Positions 36,110 through 64,000 of a DNA stretch of 64,000 nt are shown one piece after another. Every line of letters starts with the position of its first letter. Position 1 is the first letter of the stretch. The stretch comes from Pycnococcus provasolii (Eukaryota; Chlorophyta; Pseudoscourfieldiophyceae; Pseudoscourfieldiales; Pycnococcaceae). The notes under the pieces were generated by a model, which worked only from the letters and a program-made list of their open reading frames with translations, had not been told where the DNA came from and ran no database searches. The translations under genes were made by a program, and so were the position numbers. Where the stretch lies: positions 237,353-301,352 of the forward strand of contig OW568903.1 of assembly GCA_938743325.2 (NCBI GenBank), in the 5' to 3' direction.

Positions 36110-38632
36110 TCATGACCTAACAAAGGAGTCCGACACATTTCCCGTCGGCCAGTGAGTTGGCAGGAACGGCGATCTGTCGGGCTGAAGAGCATCCGGCGGC
36201 AAACCGCCGAGACGGGCCATTCCCTTGATGCGCCCGCTACGTAAATCGAGTCCCACATCCTCCAAAAACTCGTCGGCTTCACACGCTGGGCCCAATCCAT
36301 ACCGCCCGAGTAACTCGTCCAAGCCGCCATCCGCGTCGGACGTGGGTGCCGCTCCCGGAAATGGCAAGCCACACTGCTGCAGAGCGCGACGAAAGCTTAG
36401 ATCGCGTATCTCCTGCCTAAACATGAACTCCGCCTCTGTTCCCAGCGCCTCCTTTCGCTCGGCGTACAGTCGATTGCCACGCCGTGCATCCTCGGCATAG
36501 TACAGCGGGCGATACCTATTTTCGTAGAGCGTGAACGCGGCGCATTCCGCGCAGTGCATGAGAGCATAGCCGTGCGATTTGAGGCGAGCTGCCATCGCAA
36601 GCGCCTCGGCGTGAGTAGGCAGATACGCCATGTGCATATCAGAGGGCACGTCGCGCTGAAAGGCTACACTGGGTGCAAAGGCGAAATGTGGCACGTAGTA
36701 GAGCGCGGGGAAAGGACGACCTCCGAGATCTTGCACCTTCTGCCGCGACAGCGGGCGCGCCATCATGTACGCCAAGCTTTGGTCAATCGTATTCAGGTTC
36801 CAGTGGTGCGCACACGTCCCAAGCGGGAGCCGTTCGGCGGGCGGCGGCAGGCGCGCCACATCCACCGTTGGATCGTCGCCATTTGTCACCTGCGCATCCT
36901 CGCCAAGCTTTGGCGCACGCTCGTACGCTAGAAGATGGTTCGTCAGCACGCATTTCTCGTGCGGGCATGCGGCATACTGCCGCAGCAGTATCTCGTCCCA
37001 ATCTTTCACAAAACGCGTGTGACTGTCAACCTGAAGAGTGAACTCCTCGCCCATCCACAGCGCATGTGCGATCCACCGCGCGTAGCTCGGTCCGTCAGCT
37101 TGCGTGTAGTGCTCGTGCACCTCGCGAACGTGACTGCGAAATTCAGCGGGAAAGCACGGATGAGCCGTTGTGTGACAGTCCGCTTCCAGGCGCTGCTCCT
37201 CTTTCTGCAACTTCCGCTGGTGCTTCATGCATTTTTTCAAGAACTTTTCCTCTGCGTCCAAGTCCCTGCCCTGCCCACCAATCATCTGCGCCTCATCCTC
37301 AATCTTCGCCGTGAGGCGATTCACACGCAGATACGCGCGCGTCACCTCTCCCTTCGGCTCGGGGGTTGTTGCATAGTGCCAGCATACGCCAGAAAACACA
37401 CGTCGGGGATTGGCGGCATTGCGAAAAGCACTCGCAAGCGATCGAATCCCCTCCGGATCTCGGTAGCATGCCATCGCCAGGAAAATGCGAGGGTGGTTTG
37501 TTGCATTCACCTGCACGCGCGGCTGTGCAGCAGCAGCGGTGGCGTCGCGCAGACTCTCCATGGAAGACTCGGCGATGCGCTCGAAGCTTGCACGGTATAG
37601 AGCGAGATCATCAGCGCTTCCGGCAAGAGCAGGATGCGACTCAACTACCCGCTTGAGGTATGCGGATCTGCACACATTCAGTGGCGCGTCGACGGGAACG
37701 CCGAGGCGGTGGAAATCTGACGACTCGTCATCAGCGTTTGCTTCGTTGCAGTCCTCCGCGTCCTGGGGATCACTGGTGCTCACCTTGCCGTCGCCGTCGC
37801 CGTCGCCGCCGCCATTCGCGTGCTGGGGCTTACTGGCGCTCACCTCGTCGTCGTCGCCGCCGCCGCCGCCGTCGCCGCCGCCGTCGTCGTCCTTGGCTCC
37901 TCGATACGCAAACGTCGGCGCTGTATCCCCCTCCGGCTTTGCACGTCCTAACCCCGCACGAGCGCCCTCGCCGCGTGCTGTTCGTGCGTCGACGTCTGCA
38001 ATTCGCCGTCGCAGCAGCTGAACGTCCGCCTCGTCGCTGCCTCCACCTTCTAGGATGGCGAGCGCCTCGGCGTAGCTTCGTCTGGCTCGCGCGAGTTCGG
38101 ACATGGCTGCGAATGCCTCCGCGCGTCGAAAGTGCCCTTTGTGCCAGTCAGGCCTCGTACGCACGCACTCGTCCGCCGCACCGAGTGCCGCATCCGCGTC
38201 GCCATCGAGGAGGTGACTCGCGCTCTCGTTAGCATGCATTGCCGCCGCCTTTTCGTCATCGTGAATACCTCTCGCTTCCTCCGCCGCGTTTCCAAACTCC
38301 GCTGCCGCACTTGCATACGCCCTCGCCTTGTAGAATGCCCTTGCTTTGTCCGCGGAAGTCCTCTCAACTTTTGACGGCTGCGCCGCCGCCGACGATGCCG
38401 CGTGGAATTCCTGCCTGAGAATTTCCAGCGCCCGCCTGACGCGTAGGAATGCGTCCGCTGATCCTCCTCGGTCTGGGTGCACGCGCGTGATCGCCCTGTT
38501 GTAGTGCGACTTGACGACCGCGAAGGGCGCGGACGCGGGCACGCCGAGCACGCGACACGCTTCCAGGGCGGTGGTCGGCATTGGCAGCACTGCATTGGAG
38601 GCACCACCACTGGCAGCTGATTCGGCGGGCAT
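36110..38632 (-). CDS. J-domain / TPR / J-like / GT60 glycosyltransferase fusion protein
   Basis: An 840-residue fusion. Residues 22-80 are a J domain with HPD at 52-54, which stimulates HSP70. Residues about 94-195 are TPR-like helices (DWHKGHFRRAEAFAAMSELARA). A Gly/Asp linker leads to a second J-like domain (306-360) in which HPD is changed to HPA (333-335), so it should not activate HSP70. Residues 381-720 match glycosyltransferase family 60, the Skp1 GlcNAc-transferase type: RIFLAMACYRDPEGIRS at the start, GPSYARWIAHALW, the metal-binding-like DSHTRFVKDWDE (536-547) and YVPHFAFA. In Dictyostelium the GT60 enzyme modifies hydroxyproline on Skp1 in the cytosol. The ATG at 38632 (MPAESAAS) is chosen; the upstream frame crosses a minisatellite. 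Confidence 0.88.
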   Translation of the reverse strand: MPAESAASGGASNAVLPMPTTALEACRVLGVPASAPFAVVKSHYNRAITRVHPDRGGSADAFLRVRRALEILRQEFHAASSAAAQPSKVERTSADKARAFYKARAYASAAAEFGNAAEEARGIHDDEKAAAMHANESASHLLDGDADAALGAADECVRTRPDWHKGHFRRAEAFAAMSELARARRSYAEALAILEGGGSDEADVQLLRRRIADVDARTARGEGARAGLGRAKPEGDTAPTFAYRGAKDDDGGGDGGGGGDDDEVSASKPQHANGGGDGDGDGKVSTSDPQDAEDCNEANADDESSDFHRLGVPVDAPLNVCRSAYLKRVVESHPALAGSADDLALYRASFERIAESSMESLRDATAAAAQPRVQVNATNHPRIFLAMACYRDPEGIRSLASAFRNAANPRRVFSGVCWHYATTPEPKGEVTRAYLRVNRLTAKIEDEAQMIGGQGRDLDAEEKFLKKCMKHQRKLQKEEQRLEADCHTTAHPCFPAEFRSHVREVHEHYTQADGPSYARWIAHALWMGEEFTLQVDSHTRFVKDWDEILLRQYAACPHEKCVLTNHLLAYERAPKLGEDAQVTNGDDPTVDVARLPPPAERLPLGTCAHHWNLNTIDQSLAYMMARPLSRQKVQDLGGRPFPALYYVPHFAFAPSVAFQRDVPSDMHMAYLPTHAEALAMAARLKSHGYALMHCAECAAFTLYENRYRPLYYAEDARRGNRLYAERKEALGTEAEFMFRQEIRDLSFRRALQQCGLPFPGAAPTSDADGGLDELLGRYGLGPACEADEFLEDVGLDLRSGRIKGMARLGGLPPDALQPDRSPFLPTHWPTGNVSDSFVRS

Positions 38633-38785
38633 GATTCGAAAAAAAAGCTTCTCGAAGAATGATCGAGAGGGCGGCCGTTTTTTTAAACCCCGAACGAAAA
38701 CTTGCTCCGGGGGAAGACTTTTGTTTGGGATTCCGGGGACCCGGTCGCGCGGGAGGAAGCACAACTGTTTTTTCTTTCTTTGGGG

Positions 38786-38908
38786 CGTGCTTTGCGCGTG
38801 CTTTGCTGAACGTGAGTCCCGGTGCTTTGCTGAACTGGTGAGTCCCGGTGCTTTGCTGAATGAACTGACCAGTGGTGCTTTGCTGAATGAACTGGTGGTG
38901 CTTTGCAC
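38786..38908. repeat. minisatellite of GTGCTTTGCTGAA(n) units, about 25 bp
   Basis: GTGCTTTGC recurs at 38788, 38798, 38822, 38848, 38874 and 38898 with variable GAACTGGTGAGTCCCG spacers. It lies 150 bp upstream of the J/TPR/GT60 ATG. The remainder of 38633-39238 shows no gene. Confidence 0.8.
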
Positions 38909-41586: not shown

Positions 41587-43197
41587 TCAGGGCACAGTGC
41601 AAGCCGCGAGCAACTGAGCAGCAGCTCGTGCCAACGCCGATGATGGCTGCGGAGTCAGTTGCGCAGCAGCTTGTGCCACCGTCGGTGATGGCTGCGGAGT
41701 CAATTGCGCACCAGCTTGTGCCACCGCCGGTGTTGGCGGCTGCTTTCGTTTCTTTTGTTTCTTTTTGGGGCGTTCGATCTGATCAACAGGCCGTGTGAGC
41801 CTCTCCACGACGGCAGGCATCTTCGCCCCTGTCGGCGTCAATCCTTTCCTGATCGCGAACTCGACTGCAGCGCGTGACCACGGCAAGTTCCTGTGATAAG
41901 AGGATGCAGCCTTCTTGGCAGCCGCCTCGGATGCCTTGCCGTCAAAAAATATGTCCTCCATCGCGAGTTGTTTGACGTGCACAGCTGCCGATCGCAATGT
42001 GTCGTCGATCGCGTCCTCAAAGTTCAAGGTGTTGTTGACTTTCTGCCCACCTCGACCAACAAAGTTGAAGTCAGGGCCTCCGCCGCCGCCGAGCCCGCCA
42101 AAACGGGATGATGATGGTGCCTTCGCGACTCTTGTCTCCATCAGCCCAAACCAAACGACGAACTCCTCTCTCGCGTGCGCAGCCTGGTCTTCGTCAGCAT
42201 AGTTTCCAAGGAAGACATTCTCACCGTTGAGACGCACTGTAGCCCTGAACATATTCTTCCCTTTAGCTGCAGGTTCCGCGGCAGCAGAGGCGGCGGCAGA
42301 GGCGGTGGTGGCAGCGGCGGCGGCAGCGGCAGGCTCAGCCGACTTTTTGGGCACGTATCCGGAGTGTTTGCGGAGTGTTTTGACAACGCCGAAGTACTTT
42401 GAAGACGTCGAATTGTCTTTCGCCTTCTCTTGTCCCTGGAGCGACCCACGGCTCTTCTTTCGAGGTGGTCCCGGCGGCGGCGGCGGTGGTGTTGGTGATG
42501 GCATCGGCGGCGGTGGCGGTGGTGCCTTCCCGCGCGCGGACTGCACAACCTTGCTGCCGTTGCGTCCTGGATACTGACCTGCGGGCTTGTTCGCAAAGTT
42601 GGTCGCAGCGTTGGTCACAGCGTTGGCACCTTTTTTCTCGATTGCCGCCTTGTCATATGCACGAGCAGCATCCACCTCCGTGTCGAAAGACCCAAGGTGC
42701 GTCGTCTTGCCCTCAACAGTAATCTTCGCCTGCCACTTGCCTTTATTACGGTGCACGCCGCGGTGCTTGGACGTCTTGGACGTTCCTGGTGCATGCTTTT
42801 GTACTTGCGGAGAAGGTTGCGTGAGTTGTGCGGCATCCAGCAGCGGCAGTAGCAGGTCTGGCCCTTCTTCTGGCTCAGAAACGAAGCTGGCTAACTTGCG
42901 CTTGCCCCGTGATGGCACCTCCTCCTTCCCGGTCGTATCACCGCGTCGACGCGTAGTTGCTGCTTCCAGGTTGGCGTTGTTGTTTCGCCCCCTGGAACTG
43001 GCACTGGCAGCCGGAACGACGAGCGTGCACTCTTTTTGCAGCTGCTTGAGCGTGAAGTTTTCGACGTCGCCATCGTCGAACGTGACGACGTGCGTGTACC
43101 TGCCCGCACCATCCTCGACGGCAGTGACGGTTCCCGCGTAGACTTGGTTGTCCTCGAAGCGCTTGGTGACGCGCGCGCCCATGGAGAACATCGCCAT
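41587..43197 (-). CDS. AP2-domain regulator with N-terminal Tudor/chromo-like domain
   Basis: A 536-residue nuclear protein. Residues 1-58 (FSMGARVTKRFEDNQVYAGTVTAV...YTHVVTFDDGDVENFTLKQL) resemble a small Tudor/chromo-like barrel that reads histone marks. Residues 143-201 are an AP2/ERF DNA-binding domain (SKHRGVHRNKGKWQAKI, HLGSFDTEVDAARAYDKAA). A second, interrupted AP2-like unit begins SKYFGVVKTLRKHSGYVPK and resumes after an Ala/Glu insert as MFRATVRLNGENVFLGNYADEDQAAHA. The C-terminus has a basic RPKKKQKKRKQPP patch and three PTVAQAAAQLTPQPS-type repeats. It is probably a sequence-specific transcription regulator linked to chromatin. The ATG at 43197 is clear; it lies 230 bp downstream of an integrase remnant. 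Confidence 0.85.
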   Translation of the reverse strand: MAMFSMGARVTKRFEDNQVYAGTVTAVEDGAGRYTHVVTFDDGDVENFTLKQLQKECTLVVPAASASSRGRNNNANLEAATTRRRGDTTGKEEVPSRGKRKLASFVSEPEEGPDLLLPLLDAAQLTQPSPQVQKHAPGTSKTSKHRGVHRNKGKWQAKITVEGKTTHLGSFDTEVDAARAYDKAAIEKKGANAVTNAATNFANKPAGQYPGRNGSKVVQSARGKAPPPPPPMPSPTPPPPPPGPPRKKSRGSLQGQEKAKDNSTSSKYFGVVKTLRKHSGYVPKKSAEPAAAAAAATTASAAASAAAEPAAKGKNMFRATVRLNGENVFLGNYADEDQAAHAREEFVVWFGLMETRVAKAPSSSRFGGLGGGGGPDFNFVGRGGQKVNNTLNFEDAIDDTLRSAAVHVKQLAMEDIFFDGKASEAAAKKAASSYHRNLPWSRAAVEFAIRKGLTPTGAKMPAVVERLTRPVDQIERPKKKQKKRKQPPTPAVAQAGAQLTPQPSPTVAQAAAQLTPQPSSALARAAAQLLAACTVP

Positions 43198-43427: not shown

Positions 43428-44687
43428 TCAGCTCCTCTCTACTCTGCCACCGCACGTGCTGCATCGAGGTGCACCTGGCTCTGTCGTCCCTTCCTTCATT
43501 TGCAGATGGCATGGTGCCATGTTGCGCTCATGCTCTGTGACTTGCGCGCCGTCTGCTCCCATCAACCGATAGGTGCCCTCTGCTCTGCCTTTGCCTTGCA
43601 CTCGCAAAATGACACGTGCCACGTGGGGCTCCAAGGTGCTGCGTGCCTCCTTGGACACGTAAACGTAATCCCCTTCCTCGTACTTGCGCAGCTTTGGCCG
43701 ATAAGCGCCATACCGTGCGGCTGCGTAGCGCAAGCTGTCCCTATGCTGTGCAATCCTGAGGTTGCCACCTGCCACAGTGCAGTGCTTTCGCATCAACAGC
43801 GCTCGCTGCAACATTGCGTCCGCCAGCCCCTCAGCTTCCCTCTCTAGCTCTAGCTCGCTCATCCTTCCTACCACTGCGGGTGGGATCACTGGCTCCCTAC
43901 CTAGCAGCAGCTCGTATGGCGTGAGCTTGGTGCTTGCCTGGACGCTGGCGTTGTACCCCATGGTAATCCACGGCACCAGCTCGTCCCACTCCTTCTGTTG
44001 TTCCTTCTCCATGCATCTCCGTAGCGCTGACTTCATTGTTTGCACCGCGCGCTCTGCAAGCCCATCTGCCTGTGGATGCCCTCTGCTTGTCCACCTGTGG
44101 TCGATGAGGGCCCGCTCCAGCAGCTCGTCAAACTCTCCTTTAAACTCGGAGCCGTTGTCCGTGACCACTTCCGCGCATGCACCATACTGACTCAGCACGT
44201 GCAGCAAAAACACCTGACTGGTTGTACTGGCTTCCTTGTTTGGCAGCGGTACTACGATGAGCGCCTTGCTGAACGCTTCAATCATCACCATGATGTACTT
44301 GTGGCCCCTTGACGTGGTTTGGAATGGCCCGGCCAAGTCCACCTGCCAGCGGTAGAACAGTCCTCTAATGGGCAGCGGTTGCAACTTCTGCCCTTCCAGC
44401 GCGGCGCCTCTCTGAGGTCGCGCCTTGGCGCGGTCACACGCAGGACATTGTCTGACGTGGCGTTCCACTTGCCCAACCATGCCTTGCCAATAGTATTGGC
44501 GAGCGAGCATACCTGCCGTGCGCCTCGCGCCAAAGTGTCCGGTGTCCTCGTGTGCTCTTCGCACCAGTTCTGCCCGCTCCGCCGGCTTCGGCACCACTCT
44601 CCAGCTGCCATTGGTGATGACCCCGTGGACCTGAGGGCCCGTTTTAGGAAAATGACCCCGCCAAGCCCAACGGGGTCGAATCCCCAA
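43428..44687 (-). mobile_element. Ty3/gypsy-type integrase fragment of a degraded LTR retrotransposon
   Basis: An uninterrupted 419-codon frame that has no ATG near its start, so it is the 3' part of a pol gene. A zinc-binding HHCC domain (H46, H51, C81, C84) leads into the DD35E core: D117 (WQVDLAGPF), D177 (VVTDNGSEF), E212 (DGLAERAVQT), with exact 35-residue spacing. A GPY/F-like C-terminal region (GDYVYVSKEA) follows. Gag, protease, reverse transcriptase and RNase H are absent upstream. A polypurine-like run (AAGAAAAAAAAGAAAAAAAA on the minus strand, about 43364-43386) lies downstream and may be the former plus-strand primer. No intact LTR pair was seen. Confidence 0.85.
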
Positions 44688-62923: not shown

Positions 62924-63126
62924 AATTAGGGTTACAATTAGGGTTACAATTAGGGTTACAATTAGGGTTAGGGTTAGGGTTAGGGTTAGGGTTAGGGTTA
63001 GGGTTAGGGTTAGGGTTAGGGTTAGGGTTAGGGTTAGGGTTAGGGTTAGGGTTAGGGTTAGGGTTAGGGTTAGGGTTAGGGTTAGGGTTAGGGTTAGGGT
63101 TAGGGTTAGGGTTAGGGTTAGGGTTA
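62924..63126 (+). repeat. internal (interstitial) TTAGGG array
   Basis: Four ATTAGGGTTACA variant units followed by about 28 perfect TTAGGG repeats, about 650 bp inside the terminal array and in the same orientation. Confidence 0.97.
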
Positions 63127-63778
63127 GATACCTTTACAGGAGCCAAGGAATTGCAAGGCTGTTTTTCTATAGTGGGAGACGCCCCTTTGCAATTAAATAA
63201 ATCATTTTTTTGTAAGGGGGACCCCCCGACCTTCCTGGGACTTTTTTTTCTCGACCAAAAAGGTCGAGAGGCCAAAAGTATACCCTCCCTTGAACGGTTT
63301 TTTTTGGTCGAGCTCCTGCTCGGTTAATTCGTATTTTCAATTAATAATTCGCTTGTATGGGAGATTAAGGTGGCAAAATTGATTATTAAGCCACTGAAAT
63401 GCCAGCGTACTAGCACTTTCCGGAGGCGGTTTGGTCGAAGAATGCAATTAAAAAGTATTTTATATTTGGTGAAAGGTGTGTATTAGGCTGGCAAGGCTGG
63501 CGGATGGTTATAAAATGCCTGCCAGGATTGCATTCACAAAATGAACGGTGTATACCCTAACACTCCCTTCCCTCTGCCGACCATTTTGGTCGAGCCCGAC
63601 CATTTTGGTAGAGCCCGACCAAAATGGTCGACAAAATTTTTGGGTGCGGTATTGCGAAAACAAAGTGCCTGCGTTACTCCCCCCATCTGACTGGTTATGC
63701 CCATGCAAAAAAAACGCCATTGATTTTTTACCGACCATTTTGGTCCAGCCCGACCAAAATGGGTGGGGCTTTTTTTTT
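63127..63778. other. spacer between two telomeric arrays with GACCAAAATGGTC palindromes
   Basis: Unique sequence with palindromic GACCATTTTGGTC/GACCAAAATGGTC boxes at 63581-63638 and 63731-63761, plus GGTCGAG boxes at 63253-63311. No gene was recognised. Confidence 0.7.
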
Positions 63779-64000
63779 GGGTTAGGGTTAGGGTTAGGGT
63801 TAGGGTTAGGGTTAGGGTTAGGGTTAGGGTTAGGGTTAGGGTTAGGGTTAGGGTTAGGGTTAGGGTTAGGGTTAGGGTTAGGGTTAGGGTTAGGGTTAGG
63901 GTTAGGGTTAGGGTTAGGGTTAGGGTTAGGGTTAGGGTTAGGGTTAGGGTTAGGGTTAGGGTTAGGGTTAGGGTTAGGGTTAGGGTTAGGGTTAGGGTTA
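63779..64000 (+). repeat. terminal TTAGGG telomere array
   Basis: About 37 perfect TTAGGG repeats run to the end of the window, with the G-rich strand 5'->3' outward. The end of the window therefore probably coincides with the chromosome end. Confidence 0.95.

Follow-up and report, generated by a model that had tools for sequence, protein, structure and literature searches.

The locus and its coding frame

The locus lies on the minus strand of the window, the whole stretch of 64,000 nucleotides that was analysed. Translation of positions 36110..38632 (-) gave a single frame of 840 codons that runs uninterrupted to its stop codon, and an intron-free reading suffices. From the N-terminus to the C-terminus, the frame holds a J domain, a TPR region, a low-complexity linker, a second J-like domain and a GT60 domain; the coordinates of these features are given below on the same strand.

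Codon usage was scored in 150-base windows, with the score trained on 13 other long frames in the window. It was above zero in this frame for all 150-base windows whose first base falls anywhere from the ATG to residue 747, linker included. At the 3′ end it was -0.04 for the window from residue 772, and negative once windows touched the stop. The scores 5′ of the ATG were negative or near zero (maximum 0.02); the ATG at 38632 is therefore the likely start, and the extension of the frame to 38914 is probably noncoding. The uninterrupted 840-residue frame claimed in a preliminary description of this DNA is thus supported by both translation and codon usage. A whole-genome search placed the locus on contig C43 and returned five matches, none of which was a second copy of the architecture.

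The first J domain and the TPR region

The HPD motif is needed by J domains for the stimulation of HSP70. The first J domain (J1) spans residues 22-79 (38396..38569) and is supported by Pfam, a J profile built from 30 J domains of the same genome, and the AF2 model. The DnaJ family (PF00226) matched residues 28-74 with an E-value of 1.5e-7 and 31.9 bits against a cut-off of 27.8; in the whole-genome scan J1 reached 27.3 bits, slightly below that cut-off. The own-genome profile scored it at 26.2 bits, and its pLDDT was 81-91 in blocks of ten residues. The HPD of J1, starting at residue 52 (38471-38479) and lying between helices II and III, is intact, as the preliminary description had stated.

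The TPR region covers residues 91-219 (37976..38362). Residues 126-193 matched HOP TPR1 (phmmer, best E 3e-9), the region aligned with TPR proteins encoded in the same genome, HOP among them, and it is helical in the AF2 model. Together these bear out the TPR helices described earlier, although Pfam reported only the DnaJ and GlcNAc/GT60 families in the 840-residue product and no TPR at E up to 1. In the alignment with the own-genome HOP, three of the five carboxylate-clamp residues are kept (N135, K165 and R169) and the first Lys and Asn are lost; the clamp positions follow HOP TPR1 numbering. Because two of the five are lost, binding of an HSP70 or HSP90 EEVD tail through this TPR appears doubtful. 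The Tah1 equivalents of the clamp residues are given in a passage of PMC4427203.

The linker and the second J-like domain

The TPR region is followed by an acidic and glycine-rich low-complexity linker at residues 227-303 (37724..37954), which contains an imperfect 60-bp tandem duplication at 37757-37871; pLDDT was below 50 at residues 227-305 in the AF2 model.

The second J-like domain occupies residues 304-368 (37529..37723), and HPA replaces HPD from residue 333 (37628-37636). It was not reported by Pfam at E up to 1. The own-genome J profile gave it 12.5 bits when scored alone and only 6.9 bits within the whole protein; 1000 shuffles were made as a control, of which 922 scored, the best at 7.5. 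The comparison with J1 showed 17 identical positions out of 42 without gaps (E 8e-9). The local score to J1 was 92, as against a best of 69 among 30 other J domains, and none of 2000 shuffles reached 92. Compared by hhalign with a profile that combines J1 with 12 further J domains, the second domain yielded an E-value of 1.1e-5 and a probability of 82, a support that is not independent of J1 because the profile contains it. In the model the helices are at the expected places with a low pLDDT of about 49-66; when the domain was folded alone, no significant structural match was obtained, the 12 Foldseek hits including two J-domain entries at E 5.5 and 8.9.

Judged by its sequence, this domain is a degenerate relative of J1, and most likely a duplicate of it. 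Since J1 itself scores 90 and 87 against two other J domains of the genome (L207 and L209), duplication of J1 is likely but not the sole possible origin. The second J-like domain with HPA in place of HPD, which the preliminary description had noticed, is supported by the J1 match, the shuffles, the J profile and hhalign.

The GT60 domain and its relatives

The GT60 (PF11397) GT-A domain forms the C-terminal part of the protein, at residues 379-808 (36209..37498). The Pfam match covers residues 383-725 (E 3.6e-45, 155.4 bits against a cut-off of 21), and the fold is a GT-A fold resembling that of GT27. Both RIFLAMACYRDP and DSHTRF are present in the domain, and with a profile match so far above the cut-off the GT60 assignment of the preliminary description was upheld.

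Relatives of the domain were collected from plasmids (6 records) and phages (3 records), of which 8 of 9 records were used, from viral contigs (at least 542 of at least 600 candidates confirmed as GT60 relatives, best 80 kept) and from prokaryote genomes (408 of 435 candidates confirmed, best 80 kept). The resulting 168 loci yielded 178 frames; one was too short and was left out, and 177 were aligned. These aligned relatives are prokaryotic and viral, with no known eukaryotic GT60 among them, and they are partly redundant, 120 of 169 collection-scan frames passing a filter for identity (<75%), length and the absence of X. The bacterial and phage relatives share 21-32% identity with the GT60 domain, and a J domain was found in 0 of the 178 frames. 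Since relatives are so common among bacteria and phages, GT60 membership alone does not indicate Skp1.

Some of the bacterial frames have compositions of their own. Two single frames of about 1800 residues from Rickettsiales/alphaproteobacteria (L106:12-5399 (+) and L109:174-5711 (+)) contain 8 and 7 GT60 stretches, respectively, and also match 2OG-Fe(II) oxygenase and AhpC/TSA, which places hydroxylase and GT60 domains within a single bacterial polypeptide. An alphaproteobacterial frame (L107:1947-5186 (+)) combines 4 GT60 stretches with methyltransferase matches.

The alignment of the 177 relatives was used to read the active site. The DxH motif is intact as DSH at residues 536-538 (37019..37027); D536 and H538 are identical in 177/177 relatives, partly by construction because the search patterns included that motif. 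R519 (Arg in 176/177) and E676 (Glu in 172/177) are also conserved, and YRD and W545-D546 are kept. The residues E676-A677 (36602..36607) are the equivalent of the GEE motif with its second Glu changed to Ala; position 677, which was absent from the search patterns, is Glu in 176 relatives and Asp in one. T701 (36530..36532) takes the place of a C-terminal His that is found in all 177 of these prokaryotic and viral sequences, was likewise absent from the search patterns, and lies in a region aligned without gaps against the nine first sequences. His419 of this protein, at a third position outside the search patterns, is Gln in 177/177.

Retaining families with DxH include GT27 and GT60, and GT27 has a metal-binding C-His, according to PMC7185993. 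From its position, we infer that the His replaced by T701 is this C-His. The same text describes the xED aspartate as variable among retaining families, so the Ala677 change may matter little. It also describes GT-A families that lack the C-His and have water or Asp as the substitute, with water in families such as GT6, GT13 and GT64; Thr701 is therefore a warning and no proof of inactivity.

The domain has further peculiarities. A helical hairpin is inserted at residues 429-485 (37178..37348), with helices at 429-451 and 458-485 in the AF2 model; the surrounding 84-residue stretch, 426-509, measures 16-62 residues (median 21) in the 177 relatives. In a tree of 178 sequences the terminal branch of this protein was the longest (2.17 against a median of 0.25), and its position was not supported. 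The loss of both the C-His and the second acidic residue, together with this branch, suggests relaxed or changed catalysis, though the changes at 677 and 701 may be ordinary among eukaryotes because the sample holds no known eukaryotic GT60. Given the altered active site, the domain is about as likely to be an active enzyme as to serve for binding.

Skp1, hydroxylases and cell compartment

In the protists studied, the O2-dependent glycan of Skp1 is started by a GT60 enzyme. The genome search returned one GT60 match and one Skp1 match, the latter carrying NDFTPEEEEE, which we take to be the context of the acceptor proline. This motif is widely conserved, plants included, and is therefore permissive evidence only. 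PF13640 had 33 matches in the genome; two were compared with solved structures, and PHD2/EGLN was the best match for both (E 9.6e-28 and 1.6e-24). Both partners named in the preliminary description, a Skp1 with the acceptor Pro and a prolyl hydroxylase, thus have candidate counterparts in the genome. PMC12101541 states that PhyA modifies a conserved Skp1 proline and that PHD2 likely evolved from PhyA.

GT60 is a broad family. According to PMC8724618, it also includes mucin-type peptide GlcNAc-transferases, with a Golgi form, and its genes occur in diatoms, oomycetes and algae; the Skp1 enzymes are described there as soluble, cytosolic and, in protists, often fused among themselves. A passage of PMC3797821 mentions prasinophyte GT60 sequences and terms their function speculative. 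The earlier statement that known GT60 proteins act on hydroxyprolyl Skp1 accordingly leaves Skp1 as one possible acceptor, given the breadth of the family (at least 542 viral and 408 prokaryotic relatives, besides the mucin-type enzymes).

By hydropathy, no signal or anchor segment is present in the 840-residue protein, no 19-residue segment having a mean above 1.39, and the protein is probably cytosolic. The proposed cytosolic enzyme recruited to HSP70/HSP90 clients is consistent with the missing anchor and the intact HPD, but it is weakened by the TPR clamp, kept at three of five positions, and by the changed His and Glu positions of the catalytic domain, which the preliminary description had not noted.

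Genome context

A total of 83 J-domain matches were found in the genome. Thirty J loci were sampled and ten long frames were scanned with Pfam, of which seven had a further Pfam match and three did not. Among the seven, the J domain is combined with ankyrin (L198), CS (L207) and STI1-DP/TPR (L212), and in a single frame with an alcohol dehydrogenase GroES-like domain (L209:154-2094 (-), contig C44). A further protein, L220:1-2043 (-) on contig C6, carries a J domain and WD40 repeats in one frame. The N-terminal part of L220 aligns with residues 13-182 of the J-TPR-GT60 protein (28% identity, E 1.5e-4); no TPR was present among the 25 listed of its 29 Pfam matches. Since several J loci carry further domains, J fusions are not rare in this genome, and the fusion with GT60 was found once.

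The genome search also returned 51 light-harvesting matches and no phycobilisome linker, which, with the TTAGGG arrays, fits a photosynthetic alga. Twelve light-harvesting matches of equal score form two clusters on one contig (C31:133072-142609 and 360395-366434). The telomere-type TTAGGG arrays lie in the window at about 62925-63130 (interstitial) and 63780-64000 (contig end). Other features of the window are tandem repeats with a GTGCTTTGCTGAA core at 38785-38906, 5′ of the ATG; a protein at 41587-43197 (-) that matches a PTM/DIR17-type Tudor domain and, slightly under the cut-off, AP2; and a retroelement-like integrase frame at 43428-44687 (-) with H2C2 zinc-binding and rve domains.

Interpretation

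At the level of sequence, the J-TPR-J-like-GT60 fusion is real. The explanation that we favour, at about even confidence, is a soluble J co-chaperone with a GT60-fold C-terminus, in which HSP70 would be recruited to a protein bound by the GT60 domain. Under this explanation, J1 would deliver HSP70 to the binding partner of the GT60 domain, the TPR and HPA domains may act as spacers or scaffolds, and the GT60 domain has most likely kept its ability to bind a UDP-sugar and a polypeptide, for which cytosolic hydroxyprolyl Skp1 would be the leading candidate. Of these steps, HSP70 recruitment through J1 has the best support. We infer the transfer of sugar, its acceptor and client handling, and transfer may have been retained, possibly weakened, or lost with about equal likelihood. 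The evidence counted for it comprises the single frame, the HPD, the GT27-like fold, the residues DxH, YRD, R519, W545-D546 and E676, the missing anchor, the single GT60 match, the Skp1 motif, the PHD2-like hydroxylases, the other J fusions in the genome and the loss of the C-His in other GT-A families (PMC7185993). Counted against it are the lost C-His and acidic residue, the longest branch, the incomplete TPR clamp and the weak support from the Skp1 motif.

A J-protein with a pseudo-glycosyltransferase, whose GT60 domain transfers no sugar and binds a UDP-sugar or a client for a dedicated co-chaperone, is a serious possibility, though a minority one. Two invariant or near-invariant positions (701 and 677) are changed, the terminal branch is the longest in the tree, the companion J-like domain has also lost its HPD, and the inserted stretch exceeds that of all 177 relatives. 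Yet the domain retains DxH, E676 and further conserved residues, the C-His is absent from some GT-A families (PMC7185993), and the changes may prove ordinary once set beside eukaryotic GT60 enzymes.

An active, HSP70-coupled candidate GlcNAc-transferase for Skp1 or another hydroxyprolyl protein is unlikely. Such an enzyme would start the O2-dependent Skp1 glycan, and its J/TPR module would use HSP70 to keep Skp1, or the complexes that contain it, accessible. The single GT60 match, the Skp1 motif, the PHD2-like hydroxylases and the missing anchor agree with it, as do the soluble, cytosolic and often fused Skp1 enzymes of protists (PMC8724618); the lost C-His and second Glu of GEE speak against it. 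More speculative still is a chaperone-coupled cytosolic glycosyltransferase, in which HSP70 recruited by J1 would hand its clients, Skp1 or hydroxyprolyl proteins still being made, over to the atypical GT60 site or hold them open for sugar transfer there; if true, O2-dependent glycosylation would be a step in cytosolic folding quality control.

A mucin-type Golgi enzyme with an accidental J/TPR extension is highly improbable, for although the peptide GlcNAc-transferases within GT60 have a Golgi form (PMC8724618), the signal or anchor segment is absent by hydropathy. Equally remote is the reading of two neighbouring genes, or an artefact, as one frame: the linker is of low complexity with a 60-bp duplication, but 840 codons run without a stop, the linker interrupts no codon-usage signal, and the J-like domain beside GT60 is most similar to the J domain at the opposite end.

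A GT60 fold within an HSP70 co-chaperone, as in the favoured explanation, would couple cytosolic glycosylation to chaperone action or, alternatively, exemplify a glycosyltransferase converted to a binding module.

Comparison with known systems

No paper on a J-TPR-GT60 or near combination was found in searches of the open-access literature, in agreement with the preliminary description, which knew of no report of this architecture. J-TPR co-chaperones are exemplified by DNAJC7-like proteins. With these, and with L189 of the same genome, the present protein shares a J domain with HPD and a TPR, and it differs in its GT60 C-terminus, second HPA domain and incomplete TPR clamp. The PF11397 domain is common to the bacterial and phage proteins (21-32% identity), which lack a J domain (0/178 frames) and keep the C-His in all 177 that were aligned.

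Gnt1, the Skp1 GlcNAc-transferase (GT60) of Dictyostelium and Toxoplasma, has in common with this protein a PF11397 domain with DxH, the lack of an anchor, and a genome with Skp1 and PHD-type hydroxylases. The J-TPR-J-like N-terminal module sets the present protein apart, as do the Thr for C-His, the Ala for the second Glu of GEE and the helical insertion, changes that are defined against prokaryotic and viral relatives. The references of PMC12101541 include a plant-pathogen enzyme with both prolyl hydroxylase and GlcNAc-transferase functions, which is reportedly a Pythium PhyA-Gnt1 fusion. This enzyme and the present protein both fuse a Gnt1-type module to another, but the partner is a pathway enzyme there and a co-chaperone here.

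The GT27 polypeptide GalNAc-transferases belong to a different sequence family, and GT60 is described without their ricin-like domain in PMC8724618. In the fusions among Skp1 enzymes that this paper describes, the partners are again pathway enzymes, whereas here the partner is a co-chaperone module.
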